A stretch of 64,000 bases of DNA. It comes from Lachnospiraceae bacterium. GTDB lineage: Bacteria > Bacillota > Clostridia > Lachnospirales > Lachnospiraceae. The stretch covers positions 62,001 to 126,000 of the forward strand of contig JAETRI010000007.1 in NCBI GenBank assembly GCA_021770245.1, given 5' to 3'. Both the position numbers and the translations under genes were made by a program. Positions within the stretch are counted from its first letter, which is position 1; each line of letters starts with the position of its first letter. The notes below the pieces were generated by a model. It was not told the origin of the DNA. It ran no database searches and was given only the letters and a program-made list of their open reading frames with translations. Positions 2,713 to 53,398 of the stretch are shown here, in pieces.

Positions 2713-3670
2713 TGAAAAAGTATTGCTGCAGGCGAACCACATAAAGAAATATTTTCAGGGCCGGGGTAAAAACGTGGTTAAGGCTGTGGACGACGTGAGC
2801 TTTACCCTGAAGAAGGGGGAGACGCTGGGGCTGGTGGGCGAATCGGGCTGCGGGAAGTCTACCCTGGGGCGTACCCTGCTGCGTCTGCTGGAGCCGACGG
2901 AGGGAGAGATCCTCTACAACGGGCAGGATCTTTCGAAGCTTTCCGTCAAAGAAATGCGCCTGATGCGTCAACATATGCAGATGGTATTTCAGAACCCGTA
3001 TTCTTCCCTGAATCCGCGTATGACGGTGTTGGAATCGGTGCGTGCGCCCCTGGATATTTTTCACATAGGCAGCAGCGACGAACGGTTTGAAAAATGCCGT
3101 GAGATGCTGAAATACGTGGGGTTTGAGGAGTATCAGATTTACCGCTATCCCCATGAGTTTTCCGGCGGGCAGAGGCAGCGTATCGTGATTGCCAGGGCGT
3201 TGATATCATCCCCGGACTTCATCGTATGCGACGAGCCGGTATCCGCGCTGGATGTGTCCGTCAGGGCGCAGGTGCTTAACCTGATGCGGGAAATCAACGA
3301 GCAAAGAGGCGTGGCTTATCTCTTCATTTCCCACGATCTGAGCGTGGTAAAACACGTAAGCGACCGGATCGCCGTCATGTATCTGGGAAATATGGTGGAG
3401 CTGGCCGAATGTGAGGAGCTGTACCGGAATCCGAAGCATCCCTACACACAGGCGCTGCTTTCCTCCATTCCGATTCCGGATCCGGACGTGAAGATTGAGC
3501 GGATTCCGCTGGAAGGGGATCTTCCCAGCCCCATGAATCCGCCGAGCGGCTGCCGCTTCCACACCCGCTGCAGATTCGCCACCGAACGGTGTAAAACCGA
3601 GCGGCCGGCATTTGGCTATGACGAAAACGGACATGGGGTGGCCTGCCATCTGTGTGAGCAGAAAGGTTGA
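2705..3670 (+). CDS. Oligopeptide/dipeptide ABC transporter ATP-binding protein, DppF-like
   Basis: [30 protein letters not shown]; overlaps the preceding gene. Confidence 0.92.
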
Positions 3671-3732
3671 AGGAAGAACGCTTTCAACCTCCCTGATTTA
3701 AGTGCGCGCTAAAGCGCGCAGACGGGAGCAAG
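3664..3732 (+). repeat. Single copy of the 67-bp hairpin-SD family (family 1)
   Basis: aggttgaaggaagaacgctttcaacctccctgatttaagtgcgcgctaaagcgcgcagacgggagcaagg. Confidence 0.92.
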
Positions 3733-3766
3733 GATAACGCGAATGAGAAGGGAGTGAAGGAAACGT

Positions 3767-5167
3767 ATGAATGACAGAGAACTGGGCGCTGCGGTGGAGC
3801 AGTGGGGAAGGCAGCACAGGGACGAACTGGTACGCGATATTATCCATATCGTGAACCAAAGGTCTGTCAGCTGTCCGGGAGAAGGCGGCTATGCCTTCGG
3901 TACGGACTGTAAGCTGTGTGCGGATGCCATGGAAGGACTGGGAAAACAGTATGGCTTTACAACCCAAAACGATGATTACTATACCTTGAGTATCCTGATG
4001 GAGGGAACGACCCAAAGGGAGATCGGTCTTTTGGGACATCTGGATGTGGTTCCGGAGGGGAACGGATGGCATTATGAACCCTATCAGGCAATCGAAAAGG
4101 ACGGGTTCGTCATCGGACGCGGCAGCAGCGATAACAAGGGAGCCGTCATCATGGCCCTGTATGTGATGCGCTGCTTAAAGGAGATGGGGATTGAGTTCTC
4201 CCACACCCTGCGGTTGATCTGCGGATTTAACGAAGAGGCGGGCATGAAAGACGTGGAGCACTATCTTACGGTGCATGAACCGCCGGAATATACCATCGTA
4301 ACTGACGGCGGCTGGGCAATGTGTATCGGGGAAAAGGGGATCCTGACCGCCAACCTGAACCAGCGGATCACTTCGGGGAACCTGGTGGCCATGGAAGGCG
4401 GCGTGGCTTCCAATTCGGTATCCGGGTCGGCTGTGGCGAAGCTCTCCGGCCTGGATACGGAGGCGGTGCGTAGGCTGGCGCAGGAGTGCCCGGAGGAGAT
4501 CACCGTATCCGAAGAAGAGGGCCTTACGAAAATCGTGGCCAAAGGAAAAGCGGCCCATGCGGCATTTCCGGAAGGCGGGGAGAGCGCGATCTATAAGCTG
4601 AACCGTTTCCTTACCCGCCATAACCTGGTGCGCGGGGACGCGGCGGACGCCGTACGGAATCTGGCAGAGTTATTTTTGGACGAATACGGGACCGGGCTGG
4701 GAATTGCCTTTGAGGACGATCTTTCCGGAAAGACCACGTGTGTGGGCGGGGTGATCTCCTATCGGAACGGTATCCTGACCCAGAATATCAACGTGCGCTA
4801 TGCCATCAGGCAGGAGAGCGAGGCGCTTCTTGCGAACCTGAAGGGCACCTGTGAGGCGAGAGGGATTTCCGTAGACGATCTGGACTACAGCGGCCCCAGA
4901 TATACGGATCCGGCCGCGCCCGTGACCAAAATGCTCCTGGATACCTGCCACGAGTTTCTGGGAGAGGAATACGAGCCCTATACGATGGGGGGCGGGACCC
5001 ACGCGAGAAAATTCCCCAACGCGCTGCCCTACGGCCCGGGAGGATTGAAGGTGGAAAATCCCTTCGGCAGTCCCCACGGCATCGACGAGGCGGTATGTAT
5101 CGACAGCCTGATACGCTCCATGGGGGTCTATGCGGTTGCTCTTGTGCGGCTGGATGCCATGCTTTAA
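3767..5167 (+). CDS. M20 family metallopeptidase (PepV-like dipeptidase)
   Basis: GHLDVVPEGNGWHYEP, GRGSSDNKG, CGFNEEAGMKD, GGGTHARKFPN motifs. Confidence 0.88.
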   Translation: MNDRELGAAVEQWGRQHRDELVRDIIHIVNQRSVSCPGEGGYAFGTDCKLCADAMEGLGKQYGFTTQNDDYYTLSILMEGTTQREIGLLGHLDVVPEGNGWHYEPYQAIEKDGFVIGRGSSDNKGAVIMALYVMRCLKEMGIEFSHTLRLICGFNEEAGMKDVEHYLTVHEPPEYTIVTDGGWAMCIGEKGILTANLNQRITSGNLVAMEGGVASNSVSGSAVAKLSGLDTEAVRRLAQECPEEITVSEEEGLTKIVAKGKAAHAAFPEGGESAIYKLNRFLTRHNLVRGDAADAVRNLAELFLDEYGTGLGIAFEDDLSGKTTCVGGVISYRNGILTQNINVRYAIRQESEALLANLKGTCEARGISVDDLDYSGPRYTDPAAPVTKMLLDTCHEFLGEEYEPYTMGGGTHARKFPNALPYGPGGLKVENPFGSPHGIDEAVCIDSLIRSMGVYAVALVRLDAML

Positions 5168-9345: not shown

Positions 9346-9390
9346 ATGGCTGTCAAGGCGTGCCAAAGGCACGCAGAGAGGGGAGCGGAC

Positions 9391-10353: not shown

Positions 10354-10390
10354 ACAAAAAAGGCCTGAATCGGGCGGATGGAGATTTAAA

Positions 10391-10456
10391 GATTGAAAAT
10401 TGACATCTTCGATCTTCCTGATTTGTATGCGCGCCGGGGCGCGCGGATGGGAGCAA
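10391..10456 (+). repeat. Family 1 hairpin-SD cassette between the two TIM-barrel genes
   Basis: gattgaaaattgacatcttcgatcttcctgatttgtatgcgcgccggggcgcgcggatgggagcaata-ATG. Confidence 0.9.
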
Positions 10457-10458
10457 TA

Positions 10459-11211
10459 ATGAAGATTGGATATGCGATGTATTCGGCACGGGATCTGACG
10501 ACCGACCCTGCCTCTATGAGAAAGGTTCTGAAGGCACTTTCGGAAATGGGATATGAAGGGGTTGAATTTTTTCTGTACAACGGTACGGATGCTTCGGAGC
10601 TGAGGGCCATGCTGGGGGAATATTCCCTTACGGCGATCGGAACCCATGTGCATAAGCCCCGCTGGGATGCGGATACACAGGGGGAAATCGCTTACGCACA
10701 GCAGGCGGGAATCCCGTATCTGGTGTACCCCTGGATAGAACCTGCCCTGCGGAATGAGACATTTTATCAAAGCCTTCCTAAAATACTGAAGGACCTGTCC
10801 GCATTATGTGAAGAAAAGGGTATTCATCTTCAATATCATAATCATGATTTTGAATTTGAAAAGCTGGCCGGGGAACCGGTATTGGACTATCTGATGGGCA
10901 GGGAGGATTCTTTCACCCTGGAACTGGATACCTTCTGGGCCCGGTATGCCGGAGCGGATGCCGTGGCTTACATGAAGAAATACGGCAGCAGGATCCCCAT
11001 GATTCATGTCAAGGATTATCTGGGAGAGAAGGATGGGGGAATGGCCTTTACGGCGATCGGCACCGGGAAGATGGACAATACGGAGGTGATCAGAGCGGCC
11101 AGGGAACAGGGAAAGGAATGGCTGATCGTGGAGCTGGATAACAGCCCGCTGGATCCTCTGGAGAGCGCACGGATCAGCATAGAGGCAATTCGGAGGATTC
11201 TGAGCCAATAA
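10459..11211 (+). CDS. Sugar phosphate isomerase/epimerase (xylose isomerase-like TIM barrel)
   Basis: GYEGVEFF, LQYHNHDFEFE, LELDTFWARYAG, MIHVKDY. Confidence 0.85.
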   Translation: MKIGYAMYSARDLTTDPASMRKVLKALSEMGYEGVEFFLYNGTDASELRAMLGEYSLTAIGTHVHKPRWDADTQGEIAYAQQAGIPYLVYPWIEPALRNETFYQSLPKILKDLSALCEEKGIHLQYHNHDFEFEKLAGEPVLDYLMGREDSFTLELDTFWARYAGADAVAYMKKYGSRIPMIHVKDYLGEKDGGMAFTAIGTGKMDNTEVIRAAREQGKEWLIVELDNSPLDPLESARISIEAIRRILSQ

Positions 11212-15905: not shown

Positions 15906-16442
15906 TCAGCCCCGGTTCTGCCGGGCCTGTCCGCAAAGCGCCTGCTGGGCGGAAGACAAAACGCCTGCCTGAAAACCGTCCATGGGGGCGGAAAGTTCCG
16001 CCAGCCTGCCGCCGTAGATCTGCGTTAAGAGATGATCCAGAGAGCGCAGGGCGGATCTCAGGAGCGCCTGGGAAAGCAGGCCCTGTTCCAGCGCATCGGA
16101 AATCTCGCTCAGATCCACCACCTTCACGAAGCCGTCCGGATAGATAATAACGTCGGCCAGCAGGTCGGTGGCGATGAGGGAATTGTCCTCCGGATTAAAA
16201 TCGCAGGAAATAATATCGCAGTAATGATAGAGGAGCCGTCCGTCCGGGGCGTAAAACCGGCTGATCTTATAGCCCCTTTTCAGATAATAACAGGAGAACC
16301 CGTGATCCAGATCCTTTCTGGGCCGAAGCGCCCTCCAGCCGGTCACCAGGATATCGGGATCGTGCCTGAGAATCACATCGTCCTTTAACAGGATACATTC
16401 ATCCGGAATCAGACGTCTACGATATAGAACGGGATCGCTCAT
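15906..16442 (-). CDS. DUF402 family protein
   Basis: MSDPVLYRRRLIPDECILLKDDVIL..., YCDIISCDFNPEDNSLIATDLLADVIIYPDG typical of DUF402. Confidence 0.7.
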   Translation of the reverse strand: MSDPVLYRRRLIPDECILLKDDVILRHDPDILVTGWRALRPRKDLDHGFSCYYLKRGYKISRFYAPDGRLLYHYCDIISCDFNPEDNSLIATDLLADVIIYPDGFVKVVDLSEISDALEQGLLSQALLRSALRSLDHLLTQIYGGRLAELSAPMDGFQAGVLSSAQQALCGQARQNRG

Positions 16443-16778
16443 AATGTGCTCCCTTCTGCGCGCCTCGGCGCACGCTTTGCCAGGGCGGGATCGCACCCTT
16501 TTTGGTTTCCTTTTGCAAATCCTCTTCCCGCATTTCCCGAACCGGAGAAACAAAAACGATCCCCATATCCGGCTTCTGTGTGTATTGCATTCAGTATAGG
16601 CTATAACCATCGTTTATTCAACCGTAAAATCGGCCTGTCCCCGAATTTTTTAACCGTGTCGGCGAAGGGGGCAGCGTGAAATCGAAGATTTCACGATCCT
16701 GATTTGCCTGCCCGCCAAAACGGGCGGCCCGAACTTATCCGTACAGAAAAAAGTACAAGGAAAGAACGATTGTTTCGG

Positions 16779-28883: not shown

Positions 28884-30035
28884 ATGGACGAGCTGTTAAA
28901 GCTGCTTGGGGAAAGTATGAATGACAGGTTATACCAGATGACGGCGGGAGGGCCGCGAAAGAAGGGCGGGGAGCTCAGGGTTCGGATCAGGCCGATCCTG
29001 CTGCGCGGCCGCCTGTCCTTTCAGATGGAGCGATTCTGCGGCAGCCAGGTTTTTCATCGGAATCTGACCGATCGGGAAGCGGTATCCGCCATGGCGGAGG
29101 TGATGGAGAGATTCCGCCAGCTGGACGTGGACACCACGGATTTCCATGCCACCGTGCTGATGAACAAAAAAGGGGAGGCGGTCATCAGAAAGCGGACGAA
29201 GGGAGAACCGGATCAGGTAAAGCGGCAGGTACCCGGGCATGACAGAAAAAAGAACTATATTCTGGAGGAGGGACAGCCGGTTCCTTTCCTGATCGATCTG
29301 GGGGTCCAGACGCCGGACGGAAAGATTGTGAGAAGCAGATACGATAAATTTCGCCAGGTCAACCGTTTTTTGGAATTTATTGCCGATATTGTGCCAATAC
29401 TTCCAGGAGGGCGGTGCATCAGGATCGTCGATTTCGGATGCGGGAAAAGCTATTTAACCTTTGCCATGTATTATTACCTGCACGTAAAGTGCGGCCTGGA
29501 TATCCGGGTAACCGGCCTTGATCTGAAAAAAGAGGTGATCATGCACTGCAGCGCCCTCGCGGAGAAATACGGATTTACGGGGCTGGATTTTCAACAAGGG
29601 GATATCGCGGGCTATGAGGGTGGAGATCAGGCGGACATGGTGGTAACGCTCCACGCCTGTGATACGGCCACGGATTATGCCCTGCACCGGGCGGTAGGCT
29701 GGGGCGCTAAAGTGATCCTTTCCGTTCCCTGCTGTCAGCATGAGATGAACGCTCAGATTGCCTGTAACGTGCTGCAGCCCGCACTGAAGTACGGACTGAT
29801 CCGGGAACGGATGTCGGCGCTTTTAACGGATGCGCTCCGGGCAAATCTGCTGGAGGAGGCCGGATATGAGGTGCAGGTACTGGAGTTTATCGATATGGAG
29901 CATACGCCTAAAAATATCCTCATCCGCGCAATAAAGAAGGAGAACGCCCGGCCGACGGATACCAAAGCCGCCGAGATGGCGGATTTCCTGCATGTGAACA
30001 CATGTCTGCAAAAACTGATGGCAGGAGTAGGTTGA
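28884..30035 (+). CDS. Class I SAM-dependent methyltransferase (Methyltransf_32-like)
   Basis: IRIVDFGCGKSYLTFAMYYYL; VTLHACDTATDYAL; hairpin-SD cagatgggag upstream. Confidence 0.85.
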   Translation: MDELLKLLGESMNDRLYQMTAGGPRKKGGELRVRIRPILLRGRLSFQMERFCGSQVFHRNLTDREAVSAMAEVMERFRQLDVDTTDFHATVLMNKKGEAVIRKRTKGEPDQVKRQVPGHDRKKNYILEEGQPVPFLIDLGVQTPDGKIVRSRYDKFRQVNRFLEFIADIVPILPGGRCIRIVDFGCGKSYLTFAMYYYLHVKCGLDIRVTGLDLKKEVIMHCSALAEKYGFTGLDFQQGDIAGYEGGDQADMVVTLHACDTATDYALHRAVGWGAKVILSVPCCQHEMNAQIACNVLQPALKYGLIRERMSALLTDALRANLLEEAGYEVQVLEFIDMEHTPKNILIRAIKKENARPTDTKAAEMADFLHVNTCLQKLMAGVG

Positions 30036-30135
30036 AAAATGACCTTCGGTCATTTTTCAACCGGGAATTTGTGCTGCCGCGCAGGACGCGGCATGGAGGA
30101 GGAGATTGCCCGCCGGGGCGGGCAGATGGGAGCCA
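30033..30135 (+). repeat. Chimeric cassette (family 2 stem then family 1-type hairpin-SD) upstream of the large exported protein
   Basis: ggttgaaaaatgaccttcggtcatttttcaacc...gcgcaggacgcggcatggagg...gcccgccggggcgggcagatgggagcc. Confidence 0.88.
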
Positions 30136-30138
30136 TTT

Positions 30139-33500: not shown

Positions 33501-33590
33501 GGGTAGAGTGCCGGGAAGCCTGTGAAGACTTCCCGGCATCTTAGTTTACCAAAAACGGAGAGAAAGTCAAGCGGGCCGCAGTCCGTTTAC

Positions 33591-33827
33591 AGGATAAAGG
33601 CATGAAAGGCCCTGCGGCCCCTGTGCCACCCCTGCCCGGCCCCACGGCGTGTGATGATCCATCGGGGACCCGCTCTCGCTCAGCCAAAAACGCAGCGGTA
33701 CTAAGCTCGCAAGGGGCGCGCTCGCTAAGTGCCGGCGTTTTTGGATGGTCCCCTCTGTGATCATCACACGCCGTGGGGCCGGGCAGGGGTGGCACAGGGG
33801 CCGCAGGGCCTTTCATGCCTTTGTCCT
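33591..33827. repeat. Large palindromic element copy 1 (237 bp)
   Basis: aggataaaggcatgaaaggccctgcgg...ccgcagggcctttcatgcctttgtcct near-perfect inverted repeat around a conserved core. Confidence 0.92.
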
Positions 33828-34994: not shown

Positions 34995-35118
34995 AACGGA
35001 TGGCCGGCCGGTCCGGCGGAATGAGAGGAAGATTGAAAATTAAAATTTTCAATCTTACGGATTTGGGCCTATTCCCGTTTTGGGAAGACCCAAAACGGGA
35101 AAGGCATGGGTATAAATT

Positions 35119-35778
35119 ATGGAGAATAAAAATCTGGAAGAGGAACGGGAGAATCCATCCGTAGAAGAGATGGAGGATACGGAGCAAAACGAGCCTGAAA
35201 AGCCGGAAGAGGAATCCGTCGGAGAAGAGACGCAGGAGGGCCCGGAGGAATCGGAGAATACCGAAGAGGAGGGCGGAGAAAGCGAAGAGAATCCCTCCAA
35301 GGAGGGTTTCTTTAAAAAGAAGAAAAAAGATAAAAAGGAAGAAGCCTTTAAGGCCAGGATTGATGAACTGGAAGACAGGGTAAAGCGGCAGATGGCCGAG
35401 TTCGAGAATTTCAGGAAACGCACCGACAGGGAAAAGGCAGCAATGTTTGAAACCGGAGCCAAAAGCGTGGTGGAAAAGATCCTTCCTGTGGTTGACAACT
35501 TTGAAAGAGGTTTGGCAGCCGTACCGGAGGGGGAGAAGGAAAGCGCTTTTGTGGAAGGGATGAACAAAGTATATAAACAGCTGATGACCGAGCTGGACAA
35601 TATGGGGGTAAAACCCATAGAGGCTGCAGGTAAGGAGTTTGATCCGAATTACCATAATGCGGTGATGCATGTGGAAGACGAGGAATACGGCGAGAATATC
35701 GTGGTAGAGGAACTCCAGAAGGGATATCTGTATCACGATGCCGTGGTCAGGCACAGCATGGTAAAGGTTGCGAACTAA
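35119..35778 (+). CDS. grpE: Nucleotide exchange factor GrpE
   Basis: FENFRKRTDREK; FDPNYHNAVMHVEDEEYGENIVVEELQKGYLYHDAVVRHSMVKVAN. Confidence 0.97.
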   Translation: MENKNLEEERENPSVEEMEDTEQNEPEKPEEESVGEETQEGPEESENTEEEGGESEENPSKEGFFKKKKKDKKEEAFKARIDELEDRVKRQMAEFENFRKRTDREKAAMFETGAKSVVEKILPVVDNFERGLAAVPEGEKESAFVEGMNKVYKQLMTELDNMGVKPIEAAGKEFDPNYHNAVMHVEDEEYGENIVVEELQKGYLYHDAVVRHSMVKVAN

Positions 35779-41291: not shown

Positions 41292-42452
41292 ATGGAATGC
41301 TATCTGGATAACTCGGCTACAACCAGGTGTTTTGACAGCGTTGCGCAGCTTGTGGACCGGGTGATGTGCCTGGATTACGGCAACCCGTCCAGCATGCATC
41401 GAAAGGGCGTTGAGGCTGAGCAGTATGTCCGCTATGCAAAAGATGTGATCGCAAAAATACTGAAGGTGGACGGAAAGGAGATTTTTTTCACCTCCGGAGG
41501 AACGGAATCGAATAATATGGCGCTGATCGGCTGCGGCTTTGCCAACTGCCGCAGCGGCCATCATCTGATCACCACGTCCATTGAGCACCCGGCCATCCTG
41601 CAGACCATGCGTTATCTGGAAGAACAGGGATTTGAGGTGACCTATCTGCCGGTGGATGAGTTTGGCAGAATCCGTCTGGAAGATCTGGAAGGAGCCCTGC
41701 GGCCGGATACCATCCTGGTATCCATCATGCACACCAATAATGAAATCGGTACCCTGGAGCCGGTCGCGGAGGCGGGGGCCCTGATACGGCGGATGAACCC
41801 GCAGACCCTGTTCCATGTGGATGCGGTGCAGGGTTTTGGGAAATGCCGGATCCTGCCCCGGAGGATGGGGATAGACCTGCTGTCGGTGAGCGCTCATAAG
41901 ATTCATGGACCGAAGGGCGTGGGATTTTTGTATGTGAATGAGAGGGTGAAAATCCACCCGATCCTTTTCGGCGGAGGGCAGCAGCGCGGCATGCGGTCCG
42001 GAACGGAAAACGTACCCGGGATTGCCGGGATGGCAAAGGCGGCAGAGGAAGTTTATGCCTCCCTGGAGGAGGATGTGAGCCGGATGTATGCGCTTAAGGA
42101 ACGGTTTCGAAACGGTCTGGGCGGACTGCCGGATGTGCGGTTTAACGGACCTGCTGGCCGGGAAGGCGCGCCTCACGTGATCAGCGTATCCTTCCGGGGA
42201 GTACGGAGCGAGGTGCTGCTGCATGCCCTGGAGGAGCGGGGAATCTACGTGTCGGCGGGAAGCGCATGCTCGTCTAACAAGCCGGATAAGGCAGGATCCA
42301 AGACCCTTCGGGCCATCGGTCTGGATAAGGAACTTCTGGGCTCCACGATCCGTTTCAGCCTTTCCGTATTTACGACGGAAGAAGAGATCGATTTTACCCT
42401 GCGGGCGTTGTACGACATTGTTCCCACGCTGCGCAGATATACGAGAAGATAG
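41292..42452 (+). CDS. Cysteine desulfurase (NifS/IscS-like)
   Basis: MECYLDNSATTRC; FHVDAVQGFGK; SVSAHKIHGPKGVGFLY; precedes thiI. Confidence 0.93.
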   Translation: MECYLDNSATTRCFDSVAQLVDRVMCLDYGNPSSMHRKGVEAEQYVRYAKDVIAKILKVDGKEIFFTSGGTESNNMALIGCGFANCRSGHHLITTSIEHPAILQTMRYLEEQGFEVTYLPVDEFGRIRLEDLEGALRPDTILVSIMHTNNEIGTLEPVAEAGALIRRMNPQTLFHVDAVQGFGKCRILPRRMGIDLLSVSAHKIHGPKGVGFLYVNERVKIHPILFGGGQQRGMRSGTENVPGIAGMAKAAEEVYASLEEDVSRMYALKERFRNGLGGLPDVRFNGPAGREGAPHVISVSFRGVRSEVLLHALEERGIYVSAGSACSSNKPDKAGSKTLRAIGLDKELLGSTIRFSLSVFTTEEEIDFTLRALYDIVPTLRRYTRR

Positions 42453-42520
42453 CAGGCGGTTTATGCCGCAGGCGGCCGGAATGCCGTGCCTGCGGCATAA
42501 TACGGCATGCAGATGGGAGC

Positions 42521-42788
42521 AAGGTTGAAAGAAAGTCGCTTTCAACCTCCCTGATTTGAGTACGCGCTTTAGTGCGCAAATGGGAGCAAGGTTGAAAGAA
42601 AGTCGCTTTCAACCTCCCTGATTTGAGTACGCGCTTTAGCGCGCAAATGGGAGCAAGGTTGAAAGAAAGTCGCTTTCAACCTCCCTGATTTGAGTGCGCG
42701 CTTTAGCGCGCAAATGGGAGCAAGGTTGAAAGAAAGTCGCTTTCAACCTCCCTGATTTGAGTGCGCGCTTTAGCGCGCAAATGGGAGC
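42521..42788 (+). repeat. Four tandem copies of a 67-bp two-hairpin unit ending in an SD-like ATGGGAGC, upstream of thiI
   Basis: Unit starts at 42521, 42588, 42655, 42722: aaggttgaaagaaagtcgctttcaacctccctgatttgagtgcgcgctttagcgcgcaaatgggagc. Confidence 0.97.
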
Positions 42789-42793
42789 CGGAG

Positions 42794-43987
42794 ATGAATG
42801 AGAAAGCTTTTTTGATTAAATATGCGGAAATCGGGGTAAAGGGAAGGAACCGGGGCGTGTTTGAGGATGCCCTTGTCCGCCAGATCCGCCATGGATTGAA
42901 GCGCTGCGAGGGAGAGTTTTTGGTACATCGTACCAGGGGAAGGATCTATGTGGACGTCGTTTCGGAAAGCTATGACTATGAAGAAACGGTGGACGCCCTG
43001 CAGGCGGTGTTCGGTATTTCCGCGATCTGTCCCATGAAACGGACGGAGGATGAGGGATTCGAGAAGCTCTGCCGGGATGTGGTGGATTATGTGGGAGAGG
43101 CCTGGGCGGACCGTAACATTACCTTTAAGGTGTATACCAGGAGGGCCAGAAAGGACTATCCCATGGAATCCATGGAGGTGAGCAGTGCGATCGGCGGCGT
43201 GCTGCTGGACGCGTATCCCGAGCTGCGGGTGGACGTGCACCGGCCGGAAAGGATGCTTCACATCGAGATCCGGGAAAAAATCTATCTTTATTCCACGGAG
43301 ATTCCCGGTCCGGGCGGCATGCCCGTGGGAACCAACGGCAAGGGGATGCTGCTTTTGTCGGGAGGGATCGATTCACCGGTGGCGGGCTGGATGATCGCCA
43401 AAAGGGGCGTGAAAATCGACGCGGTCTATTTTCATGCGCCTCCCTATACCAGCGACCGCGCAAAGCAGAAGGTGGTGGATCTGGCCAAAAGGGTGGCCAG
43501 GTACAGCGGGCCGGTATGGCTGCATGTGGTGAACTTTACGGATATACAGCTGTATATTTACGAGAAATGTCCGCATGAGGAATTGACGATCATTATGCGG
43601 CGTTATATGATGCGGATTGCGGAGGCAATCGCACAGGAGACGGAATGCCTGGGGCTGATTACCGGAGAGAGCATCGGCCAGGTCGCTTCCCAGACCATGC
43701 AGTCCCTGGCGGCCACGGACGACGCCTGCCTGATGCCCGTATACAGGCCCCTGATCGGTATGGACAAGCGGGAGATCATAGATCTGTCGGAGAAAATCGG
43801 TACCTATGAGACGTCGATCCTGCCCTATGAGGACTGCTGCACCATCTTCGTGGCAAAGCATCCTGTGACGAAGCCCAATCTGTCGGTGATCAAAAGACAT
43901 GAGCACAGCCTGGACGAAAAGATCGATGAATTGGTGAAAACCGCCCTGGAGACGCGTGAGCTGATCGTGGCGGATTATGAGAAATGA
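42794..43987 (+). CDS. thiI: tRNA 4-thiouridine synthase ThiI
   Basis: KYAEIGVKGRNRGVFE; LLSGGIDSPVAGWMIAKRGV; THUMP and PP-loop. Confidence 0.96.
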   Translation: MNEKAFLIKYAEIGVKGRNRGVFEDALVRQIRHGLKRCEGEFLVHRTRGRIYVDVVSESYDYEETVDALQAVFGISAICPMKRTEDEGFEKLCRDVVDYVGEAWADRNITFKVYTRRARKDYPMESMEVSSAIGGVLLDAYPELRVDVHRPERMLHIEIREKIYLYSTEIPGPGGMPVGTNGKGMLLLSGGIDSPVAGWMIAKRGVKIDAVYFHAPPYTSDRAKQKVVDLAKRVARYSGPVWLHVVNFTDIQLYIYEKCPHEELTIIMRRYMMRIAEAIAQETECLGLITGESIGQVASQTMQSLAATDDACLMPVYRPLIGMDKREIIDLSEKIGTYETSILPYEDCCTIFVAKHPVTKPNLSVIKRHEHSLDEKIDELVKTALETRELIVADYEK

Positions 43988-48894: not shown

Positions 48895-48992
48895 GAAAGC
48901 GGCGGAAGTATGGGTTTGGATCGGATAGCGGATCGGAAAGGGAGGAATCTCTTTGATTGGAATGCGTGCTTTGCACGCGGATAGGAGAAAGC

Positions 48993-49316
48993 GTGGAAGT
49001 ACAGGAGGCATTGGGTCAGCTGGTGGCGGCCATCAAGAATTCGGACATCTATCGGGAATATCGAAGACACAGTGAGAGAGTGGATCGTACCGAGGATCTG
49101 CGGGAGAAAATTAACGAATACCGTGCCCGTAATTTTGAATTGCAGAATACCTTCCATGCAGAGGATCTGCTCGATGCCATGGAGGAATTCGAAAGGCAGT
49201 ATGAAAAATTCAGGGAGGATCCGCTGGTGGAAGAATTCCTGAGCGCAGAGCTTGCATTTTGCCGTATGATGCAGGATATAGAGATTAAACTCGCGGAGGC
49301 AGTGGATTTTGAATAA
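48993..49316 (+). CDS. YlbF/YmcA family regulator
   Basis: GTG start VEVQEALGQLVAAIKNSDIYREYRRH; the track start at 48957 lies in the hairpin-SD element. Confidence 0.75.
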   Translation: MEVQEALGQLVAAIKNSDIYREYRRHSERVDRTEDLREKINEYRARNFELQNTFHAEDLLDAMEEFERQYEKFREDPLVEEFLSAELAFCRMMQDIEIKLAEAVDFE

Positions 49317-49355: not shown

Positions 49356-49745
49356 ATGAAGAAGACAGAGGTTGCCGGAAATGCGGTTTATTCAGTGGTC
49401 AAGATCGTCGTTATTATCCTGGCGGTAATGTTTATCTACCGCCTGGCGACCATGGCCTATTCCTATGGAGAAAGGCTTTTCGGGGAACCTCCGATGACCA
49501 CCGGGCCCGGCATGGATATCGTGATCACCATAGAGGAAACGGACAGCGAAAGGGACGTGGCGGAAAAGGTTGTGGATGCGGGCCTGGCCCGGGATGTGAC
49601 GCTTTTCACCATTCAGGAAAAGCTGCTGGGTACGAAACAGGGTATCCAGCCCGGGACTTATACCCTGAATACCTCCCAGACACCGGAGGAGATCATACAG
49701 GCGATGAGCGCTCTCCCGGCCGGTGAGAAAGAGGAGGAAGAATAG
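49356..49745 (+). CDS. Small membrane protein with MltG/YceG-like extracellular segment
   Basis: N-terminal TM; KLLGTKQGIQPGTYTLNTSQTPEEIIQAM resembles the LysM-like part of MltG. Confidence 0.65.
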   Translation: MKKTEVAGNAVYSVVKIVVIILAVMFIYRLATMAYSYGERLFGEPPMTTGPGMDIVITIEETDSERDVAEKVVDAGLARDVTLFTIQEKLLGTKQGIQPGTYTLNTSQTPEEIIQAMSALPAGEKEEEE

Positions 49746-49789
49746 GCGGCCTGAAAATTTGCATGTGCGCCGGAGCGCACGGATGGGGT

Positions 49790-50458
49790 ATGGCTATGAA
49801 AACGGAAGAACGTCTGGCGGTATTCATCAATTCCCTGGATGGCGGAAACCCGGCATACCTGGAGGGATTGGAGAAAACGGCGAGGGACGGGGGCGTGCCG
49901 GTCATACGGAAGGAAACCCAGAGCCTGCTGCGGACACTGCTTGCGGCGGGAAGGCCGGGGCGTATCCTGGAGGTGGGAACGGCAACGGGTTTTTCCGCCC
50001 TTTGTATGAGCGAATATGCGCCGCCGGGCTGTGAGATCACGACGATAGAGAAGTATGAAAAGAGGATCCCCGCCGCAAAGGAAAATTTCAAAAGATTCGG
50101 GAAGGAGGGATGTATCACGCTTCTGGAAGGGGATGCGGCGGACATTCTTCCCGGCCTTGCGGGACCGTATGGTTTTATCTTTATGGATGCGGCCAAGGGA
50201 CAGTATCTGCATTTCCTGCCGGAGGTCTTCCGTCTCCTGGAACCCGGCGGCCTGCTGGTATCCGATAATGTGCTAAGAGGCGGAGACATCCTGGAATCCC
50301 GTTATGCGGTGACACGCAGGGACCGGACGATTCATGCCAGGATGCGGGAATACCTGTACGAGATCAAGCATCACCCTTTCCTGGTGACCGCTATCCTTCC
50401 CGTGGGAGACGGGGTGGCGGTGAGCGTGAAAAAAACGGACGGGAACGGCTGCGTATAG
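49790..50458 (+). CDS. O-methyltransferase (class I SAM, YrrM/CCoAOMT-like)
   Basis: ILEVGTATGFSALCMSE; FIFMDAAKGQYL. Confidence 0.9.
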   Translation: MAMKTEERLAVFINSLDGGNPAYLEGLEKTARDGGVPVIRKETQSLLRTLLAAGRPGRILEVGTATGFSALCMSEYAPPGCEITTIEKYEKRIPAAKENFKRFGKEGCITLLEGDAADILPGLAGPYGFIFMDAAKGQYLHFLPEVFRLLEPGGLLVSDNVLRGGDILESRYAVTRRDRTIHARMREYLYEIKHHPFLVTAILPVGDGVAVSVKKTDGNGCV

Positions 50459-52111: not shown

Positions 52112-53275
52112 TCAGGCACCCCGCAGCTCCGCAATCCCCAGGTTTCTGTTTTCCAAAGGCCGGATCCACAGATGCCCGTCCGCATCCGGCACATTCTGGC
52201 AGATCGGTACCCGGCCCTCCTGGTCCCTTCCCTTGAGTGTCTCGAAGGTTCCCGCCGATGCCTTTCCGTTCCATTCCTGTACGTTCCCGGCCCAGTCTAA
52301 GGTCATGATGTACATCCTGCCGTCGTAAAGCCCGTCCCGGAAATTTCCCATAATATTCTGAAAATATCTGTTTCCCTCCGCTATTTTCTCCTCAGCGATC
52401 TCAAATTGCTCGTGTCCTTCTCCATTCGGAAGGTTCGCGCTCCAGTTTCCGCGGTAACTGTGGCAGATCAGGGCGGAATCAGGCCTTGATGCTCCCTCTT
52501 GTCCGGAGACGGATGTACGGGCAGGCATGGGGTTGAGCAGCGTATTCACCCCGTCCGGAACGCTGCTGTCCTCATAATACATTCTCAGCCACATCCCTTC
52601 CCCTTCGCGCATACCCGCCTTCCAGCTTCCGTAATAATATTGGTCTCCCCCATATACCGCGATTCCCACACCGTCGGGCCGGTTCTGGACATCCCGTTCC
52701 CCATAATAATAAAAGTAACCCGGTTTATCCAGTGAGGCGGACATCTTTCTGTAATGCGCCAATCCGCTAAGATCCTGCACGGCCTCCACATTCTCCCTGG
52801 CCCAATAATCCATCATTTCGGCCAGCATTTCCACGTTGGTTTTCTTTACGATTTCTCCGGAAAGGCCGTTGGCGCTCACTCCGGCCGGGCTTTTGGGCGA
52901 ATCATTACCGGACACTCCCACCCCTTTCGCATCTGCTGCCGGGACGGTCTCCCCGTTCCCGCTCTTGGGCGTTTCGTCCTCTCCCGCCGTAATTTTGTTT
53001 TCGGACACGCTGTCCGCCGGCATCTCTCCAGTCACCTCAATGGTTTCCTGAACCTCCAGGGAAACGCGTTCTGCCTCCTGCCCTATTCCGTCGGCCTTCG
53101 GTTCCTCCGCAGGCTCCGTGGGGATGGATTCTTCGACCACGGCCAGATCCGCGGCCTGTGTCTCCTTCTTTTTCCGAACGGCGCTCACCGCACATAAAAT
53201 CAGCACTGCCGCAATAAAAATAAGCAGCGCAGCGATCGGTATGAGTTCCTTTTTTAATCTGTCTTTTTCCATCAC
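52112..53275 (-). CDS. Membrane-anchored MORN-repeat-like protein
   Basis: N-terminal TM; YYGSWKAGMREGEGMW, YRGNWSANLPNGEGH, IMGNFRDGLYDGRM. Confidence 0.75.
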   Translation of the reverse strand: MMEKDRLKKELIPIAALLIFIAAVLILCAVSAVRKKKETQAADLAVVEESIPTEPAEEPKADGIGQEAERVSLEVQETIEVTGEMPADSVSENKITAGEDETPKSGNGETVPAADAKGVGVSGNDSPKSPAGVSANGLSGEIVKKTNVEMLAEMMDYWARENVEAVQDLSGLAHYRKMSASLDKPGYFYYYGERDVQNRPDGVGIAVYGGDQYYYGSWKAGMREGEGMWLRMYYEDSSVPDGVNTLLNPMPARTSVSGQEGASRPDSALICHSYRGNWSANLPNGEGHEQFEIAEEKIAEGNRYFQNIMGNFRDGLYDGRMYIMTLDWAGNVQEWNGKASAGTFETLKGRDQEGRVPICQNVPDADGHLWIRPLENRNLGIAELRGA

Positions 53276-53281
53276 TCTGGC

Positions 53282-53345
53282 TCCCGTCTGCCCGCCTTAT
53301 CGGGCATTCCCATCAAGACCGTGAGGTTGAAAAACGGCTGAAAAG
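53282..53345 (-). promoter_or_regulatory. Hairpin-SD cassette upstream of the MORN gene
   Basis: Reverse strand: agattgaaaaatgtc...tttttcaacct...gcccgataaggcgggcagacgggagccagagtgATG. Confidence 0.75.
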
Positions 53346-53398
53346 ACATTTTTCAATCTGGTTCATCCTGCATACTGTACAGCGGCCTATCCCCACTT

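Follow-up and report, generated by a model that had tools for sequence, protein, structure and literature searches.

The locus described here lies within a stretch of 64,000 nucleotides (the window, whose coordinates are used unless otherwise indicated) of a draft Lachnospiraceae genome, G000, the closest sister species of which is referred to as G011. The gene thiI is preceded there by a gene whose sequence suggests a cysteine desulfurase, and the leader between them contains a series of tandem hairpin units (Table 1). This array (42509-42788) was by far the top-scoring one of the window in Tandem Repeats Finder, with a period of 67, 4.2 copies, 98% matches, 0 indels and a score of 532. An earlier sequence-only reading had described here four tandem units with an exact period of 67 bp (42521-42788), each carrying its own Shine-Dalgarno (SD) sequence and with variants in the second stem, and a non-identical fifth hairpin with an SD ahead of them. 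All of these features are indeed present. Every unit ends in GGGAGC and the GGGAG of the last one (42783-42787), located 6 nt before the thiI ATG at 42794, is the SD of the gene; the variants of the second stem are those that had been listed, and the additional hairpin (42479-42520) ends in GCAGATGGGAGC. The folding of the thiI leader was better than that of 100 out of 100 dinucleotide shuffles (z -8.1).

Table 1. Location of thiI, its leader array and the other copies and cassettes in the window (CM, covariance model).
Feature	Position	Strand	Description	Basis
Full single unit	3651..3742	+	Before ORF at 3767; second GGGAG precedes ATG	CM 86.5 bits
Half unit	9355..9386	+	P2-type hairpin and GGGAGC, 4 nt to ATG	Sequence
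Full single unit	10377..10467	+	ATG at 10459	CM 67.5 bits
Half unit	16435..16512	-	GGGAGC before ATG; half unit likewise in G011	Sequence comparison, CM
Composite element	30029..30138	+	Behind SD GCAGGAG; G011 site empty	CM, G011 comparison
Related cassette of another sub-family	35017..35126	+	GGGTATAAATT-ATG, ORF at 35119; G011 leader differs	CM
Upstream gene	41292..42452	+	Putative cysteine desulfurase, NifS/IscS-like	ORF; identity by sequence
Unrelated hairpin cassette	42479..42520	+	SD-like end GCAGATGGGAGC, behind which the array begins	Sequence, inverted repeat
Unit 1	42521..42587	+	P1 GGTTGAAAG/CTTTCAACC, linker TCCCTGATTTG, P2 TACGCGC-TTTA-GTGCGCA, GGGAGC	
Unit 2	42588..42654	+	P2 TACGCGC-TTTA-GCGCGCA	
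Unit 3	42655..42721	+	P2 TGCGCGC-TTTA-GCGCGCA	
Unit 4	42722..42788	+	Same sequence as unit 3; GGGAG is the thiI SD	
thiI	42794..43987	+		ORF; Pfam ThiI (E=7.5e-66), THUMP, ThiI_fer
Half unit	48934..49001	+	End AGGAGAAAGC-GTG	CM 42.2 bits
Half unit	49726..49802	+	End GGATGGGGTATGGCT-ATG; G011 leader differs	CM 22.7 bits
Element	53267..53371	-	End GACGGGAGCCAGA-GTG, before 387-aa ORF	CM 36.8 bits

Structure of the repeat unit

The element is about 60-67 bp long and consists of a hairpin (P1), a conserved linker (CCTGATTTG), a second hairpin (P2) and a 3' end, AGATGGGAG, whose terminal GGGAGC is the SD of the next gene. In the aligned units AA precedes P1 and AGATGGGAG comes after P2. Among 70 diverse units the two hairpins covary, with 14 pairs changed on both sides, a value that none of 500 shuffles attained, and in slid controls the covariation was far below that of the P1/P2 pairs. 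The linker TCCCTGATTTG is conserved and unpaired in the structure model. Rfam 15 gave only two sub-threshold matches around the thiI array, with E up to 1, and no match at the gathering score was found in 20 loci with copies. The boundaries of the element are less sharp owing to the existence of half units and of several related sub-families. In G011 there are tandem units (L098 13753-13968, G011:C2) with a very different P1 (CGCGAAATC/GATTACGCG) and similar linker, P2 and SD, which suggests that P1 is exchangeable.

Copies in G000 and in other genomes

The thiI array belongs to a dispersed repeat family that is represented well over a hundred times in G000, before many unrelated genes. Using the 67-nt unit as a query against G000 we obtained 58 DNA matches on many contigs, and the copies occur as single units, as half units (P2 plus SD) and as arrays of two to four. 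With a covariance model at least 146 of the 150 candidates scored were matches; the real copy number is probably above 146, the total being a lower bound. The genome searches were carried out with rough E-values over draft genomes, one per species. Contigs of G000 were found to terminate inside arrays (C63/C91, C33/C177 and C32/C151), so that longer arrays may exist. Overlooked by the sequence-only reading, about ten more copies, complete or half, precede other genes of the window, and almost none are contained in the syntenic regions (80 kb and 60 kb) of two further species of the genus.

The position of the copies was assessed in G000 with a query that did not include any start codon, and taking as criterion the length of the ORF (at least 60 codons) rather than the annotation. 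In 39 of the 48 assessable arrays a start codon opening such an ORF comes next, located 5-6 nt after GGAG in 31 of these 39, and several of the exceptional arrays are followed by another hairpin cassette with a ribosome binding site (RBS). As a background, an ATG 5-6 nt on and opening such an ORF was found for 50 of the 687 GGGAG motifs of the same loci, element sites included. Further G000 copies, as well as copies in six other genera, end in ...CAGATGGGAG-(5-6 nt)-ATG, judged by a loose criterion and with a model that contained the flanks. Six other genomes were searched with a flank-blind model limited to the core (P1-linker-P2) and 50 copies were inspected, with a residual bias in that part of the seed sequences had been taken from the flank-containing model. 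The copies were before a start codon in 48 of these 50 cases; in 36 this was an ATG located 11-16 nt downstream of the core. The 3' flank was SD-like in 90% and the 5' flank in 66%, compared to 18% of the control windows (p=3e-13). With SD-like flanks at both sides and a start codon next, the element typically has an older SD in front of it and its own behind. The 20 downstream genes searched in G000 have no common pathway; they include dxr, uppS, cmk, ispH, coaD, proC, rpiB, argS and nagB, together with a TrkA-type gene, an aminotransferase, a sulfatase and a glycosyltransferase.

The repeat family is patchy across Lachnospiraceae. In a sample of 200 genomes of the family there were matches in 32, about nine of them with many, and in an order-wide sample only 4 of 146 genomes matched, G000 being one of the four. 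Inspection of the other three showed, in G262, an element of similar architecture preceding an ATG; the matches in the remaining two looked false. When GTDB r220 was scanned for a 20-base core, the carriers with a name were three uncultured Lachnospiraceae MAGs and one isolate, Lachnospiraceae bacterium 10-1. One scaffold of the latter (L277) has a stretch of N, either a gap or masked, inside an array, so that the repeats may break the assemblies of isolates too.

Other cassettes and palindromes were observed in these genomes. A second family of hairpin-RBS cassettes, GCCTGxCAGGC-GGCAGAATGAGAGGAAAG-ATG, is found at the SD position of other genes (L155, L151 and L152 in G011; L018:2740-2835 in G000), and the studied repeat is sometimes directly behind its AGAGGA. 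A third family has an GAAATCGCATACGCGATTTC hairpin, a TGCCGC/GCGGCA hairpin and the end AAAGGGNTAAA-ATG (L153 in G011; L007 and L036 in G000), and is found in tandem before argS in G011. The fourth type ends in GGGGTATAA-ATG or similar (35017-35126 in the window, L254 and L257); it is tandem in G209 and also appears in one genome from another family of the order. There are, in addition, long GC-rich intergenic palindromes at about 33560-33760 of the window and at about 1850-1950 of L020, the former missing from the collinear region of G011.

Filled sites, empty sites and arrays

The genome of G011 is collinear with the window (its ThiI is 94% identical) and allowed the comparison of sites with and without the element. 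We found four pairs of filled and empty sites. The composite element at 30029-30138 corresponds to an empty site in G011 that reads GCAGGAGTAACTTTATG, and conversely one element of G011 corresponds to an empty site in the window that reads AAAGGAGAACATATCATG (minus strand); in both pairs the insertion point is between the SD and the ATG. In the other two pairs it is G000 that has the element and G011 that lacks it. In one (C67:28385) the insertion lies on the 5' side of the SD and follows GGATGAT; in the other, before ispH (C22:19096), it is at the overlap of a stop and a start codon. A strict GGAG target is thus contradicted by two of the four empty sites, and no constant target-site duplication could be defined.

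Comparing by eye 18 loci between G000 and G011, roughly 11 had the family in both, the others being empty or having a different hairpin-RBS cassette. Where both species have orthologous arrays these can differ in unit number and in stem sequence, as in dxr (C47:7113) and C35:21186, supporting that the copy number of the arrays is variable between species. The median identity between units is 97% within arrays and 78% between arrays (p=1e-9), which indicates that the arrays grow in place.

These data also bear on two further explanations for the four units before thiI, both highly improbable. It could be that a single unit was falsely duplicated by the assembly, given that the genome is a draft and other arrays run into contig ends. 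However, the array is internal to a 144-kb contig that runs across it and not all of its units are the same, both facts speaking against an artefact (the copy number being that of a draft assembly), and comparable arrays are found in a species assembled independently. The sequence-only reading had proposed instead the tandem amplification of a leader, here taken as specific to thiI and multiplied through replication slippage. The 97-100% similarity of the units would fit this proposal, and the part of it concerning local amplification stands, as the identities within and between arrays indicate. The origin in thiI does not, since the identical type of unit is located before many other genes, both in G000 and in other genomes, and is missing from the thiI leaders of relatives: that of G011 has a different hairpin-RBS cassette and the other members of the genus have none. 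For the increase from one unit to four, slippage is still a plausible mechanism.

Origin of the repeat and relation to known elements

The repeat was observed to be dispersed, to lie before start codons, to have a conserved structure, to be present or absent at the same site in sister species, and to form arrays that are homogenised locally and differ in copy number. The best and simplest explanation, to which we give a probability of about 0.6, is a small non-autonomous interspersed element that occupies the gap between the SD and the start codon and regenerates the SD, the thiI array being a locally amplified copy. The element would enter this short gap in such a way that the old SD stays at its 5' edge and a new one is provided by its own 3' end, at 5-6 nt from the ATG. 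As a new SD is supplied the gene would still be translatable and the insertion tolerated, and since the end of a copy resembles the sequence at its own 5' edge, further copies could follow in register. The four thiI units would have arisen from one by local duplication. We infer that the repeat spread by non-autonomous transposition, and that the gap may be its target beyond being a place where insertions survive.

A different view would be that of a dedicated cis-regulatory RNA, either a translational switch or a protein-binding leader, in which the choice of partner by the CTCCC of the linker switches the gene and selection has spread the element. The strong covariation of P1 and P2, the conserved linker and the constancy, in different genera, of the distance to the start codon speak in favor of it. 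CTCCC has two potential partners, the SD that follows P2 and the SD-like sequence ahead of P1, and the pairing CTCCC-GGGAG, including its ATT/GAT extension, is possible in about 89% of cells. However, this helix has almost no compensatory changes, and the predicted accessibility of the SD in 31 native leaders does not differ from that of shuffled ones (mean 0.37 vs. 0.40). For the last SD of thiI the modelled accessibility was 0.98 throughout, from one to four units, and a dose effect of unit number is not predicted. Neither the compensation nor the change in accessibility that would characterize a translational riboswitch thus appeared in the models, and we do not claim an anti-SD switch. In addition, the downstream genes have nothing in common and the occupancy of orthologous genes is inconsistent between sister species. 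Altogether we consider the regulatory RNA unlikely.

Even less probable appears a single-strand element of the REP/BIME or IS200/IS605 type, cut at GGAG by a Y1 (HUH) transposase guided by the CTCC of the linker. The ends of IS200/IS605 elements have subterminal hairpins, a cleavage site and a complementary stretch beside the hairpin, and the subterminal hairpins, the GGAG at both edges and the complementary stretch of the repeat recall them by analogy. Y1 transposases were found in 6 of the 13 genomes searched within the genus. However, the Y1 transposase (PF01797), detected in control genomes, is absent from G000 and G011, precisely the two copy-richest genomes, by which it was discarded as the mobiliser. 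Besides, no transposase gene flanked by these elements was seen, and the repeat lacks the tag that is typical of REPs.

Returning to the non-autonomous element, it might represent a class of RBS-targeting mobile elements that enter the gap between SD and start codon and keep the gene translatable with their own SD. The native RBSs of many genes, probably more than 100 in one genome, would have been replaced by repeated insertion and duplication, and parallel sub-families in Lachnospiraceae would do likewise. We propose this wider statement tentatively, at slightly less than even odds. The usual view is that small interspersed repeats are tolerated in gaps poor in genes, in many cases downstream of a gene. 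The family described here resides in those few nucleotides of a bacterial gene that are most constrained, and provides its RBS. If the proposal is true, it would be a genomic parasite made harmless by bringing the very part that it would otherwise break, and the translation initiation regions of conserved genes such as dxr, uppS, ispH, coaD, cmk, argS and thiI would be exchangeable between sister gut species. The repeat also constitutes a family of natural RBS parts, the effect of which can be measured.

Several known families resemble this repeat. The BOX elements of Streptococcus pneumoniae are small interspersed palindromic repeats found near genes, with tandem boxB modules in variable number, predicted RNA structure and no transposase of their own (PMC3049150). 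All this is similar here, predicted RNA structure included, but BOX is enriched between genes that diverge or converge, while nearly all copies of our repeat are oriented with the gene and supply its SD, something not described for the BOX modules; these modules, in the order boxA-boxB(n)-boxC, are also described with another anatomy (PMC3049150). REP/BIME sequences, associated with RAYT transposases, are likewise short palindromes in high copy, some of them clustered, and patchy (PMC3733652). They are mostly downstream of coding regions and carry a GTAG or CGTC tag at one end of the palindrome (PMC3733652), whereas our copies have two hairpins and directly precede start codons, and the tag is absent from the aligned units. 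The TAACTGA repeats of Beggiatoaceae and others are tandem, located a few nucleotides upstream of the start codons of functionally unrelated genes and patchy among lineages, as is the present family, but they are heptamers with little SD character (PMC4679880) and not SD-bearing units of 60-67 bp with two hairpins.

Bacterial MITEs are small, structured, non-autonomous and found in high copy (PMC10969869). The repeat shares these traits, being high-copy and non-coding and showing insertion polymorphism between related genomes. A difference from MITEs is its fixed place between SD and start codon. It has two separate hairpins where one pair of terminal inverted repeats would span a MITE, and the GGAG at both edges could represent target and element end. 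No parent IS was found. In the available portions of their accounts, none of BOX, REP/BIME and TAACTGA repeats is described as carrying the SD of the next gene (PMC3049150, PMC3733652, PMC4679880), and the literature searched, outside of which are most subscription journals, contained analogous repeats and no earlier description of this one. We regard it as a small interspersed repeat that belongs to none of the BOX, REP/BIME and TAACTGA families.
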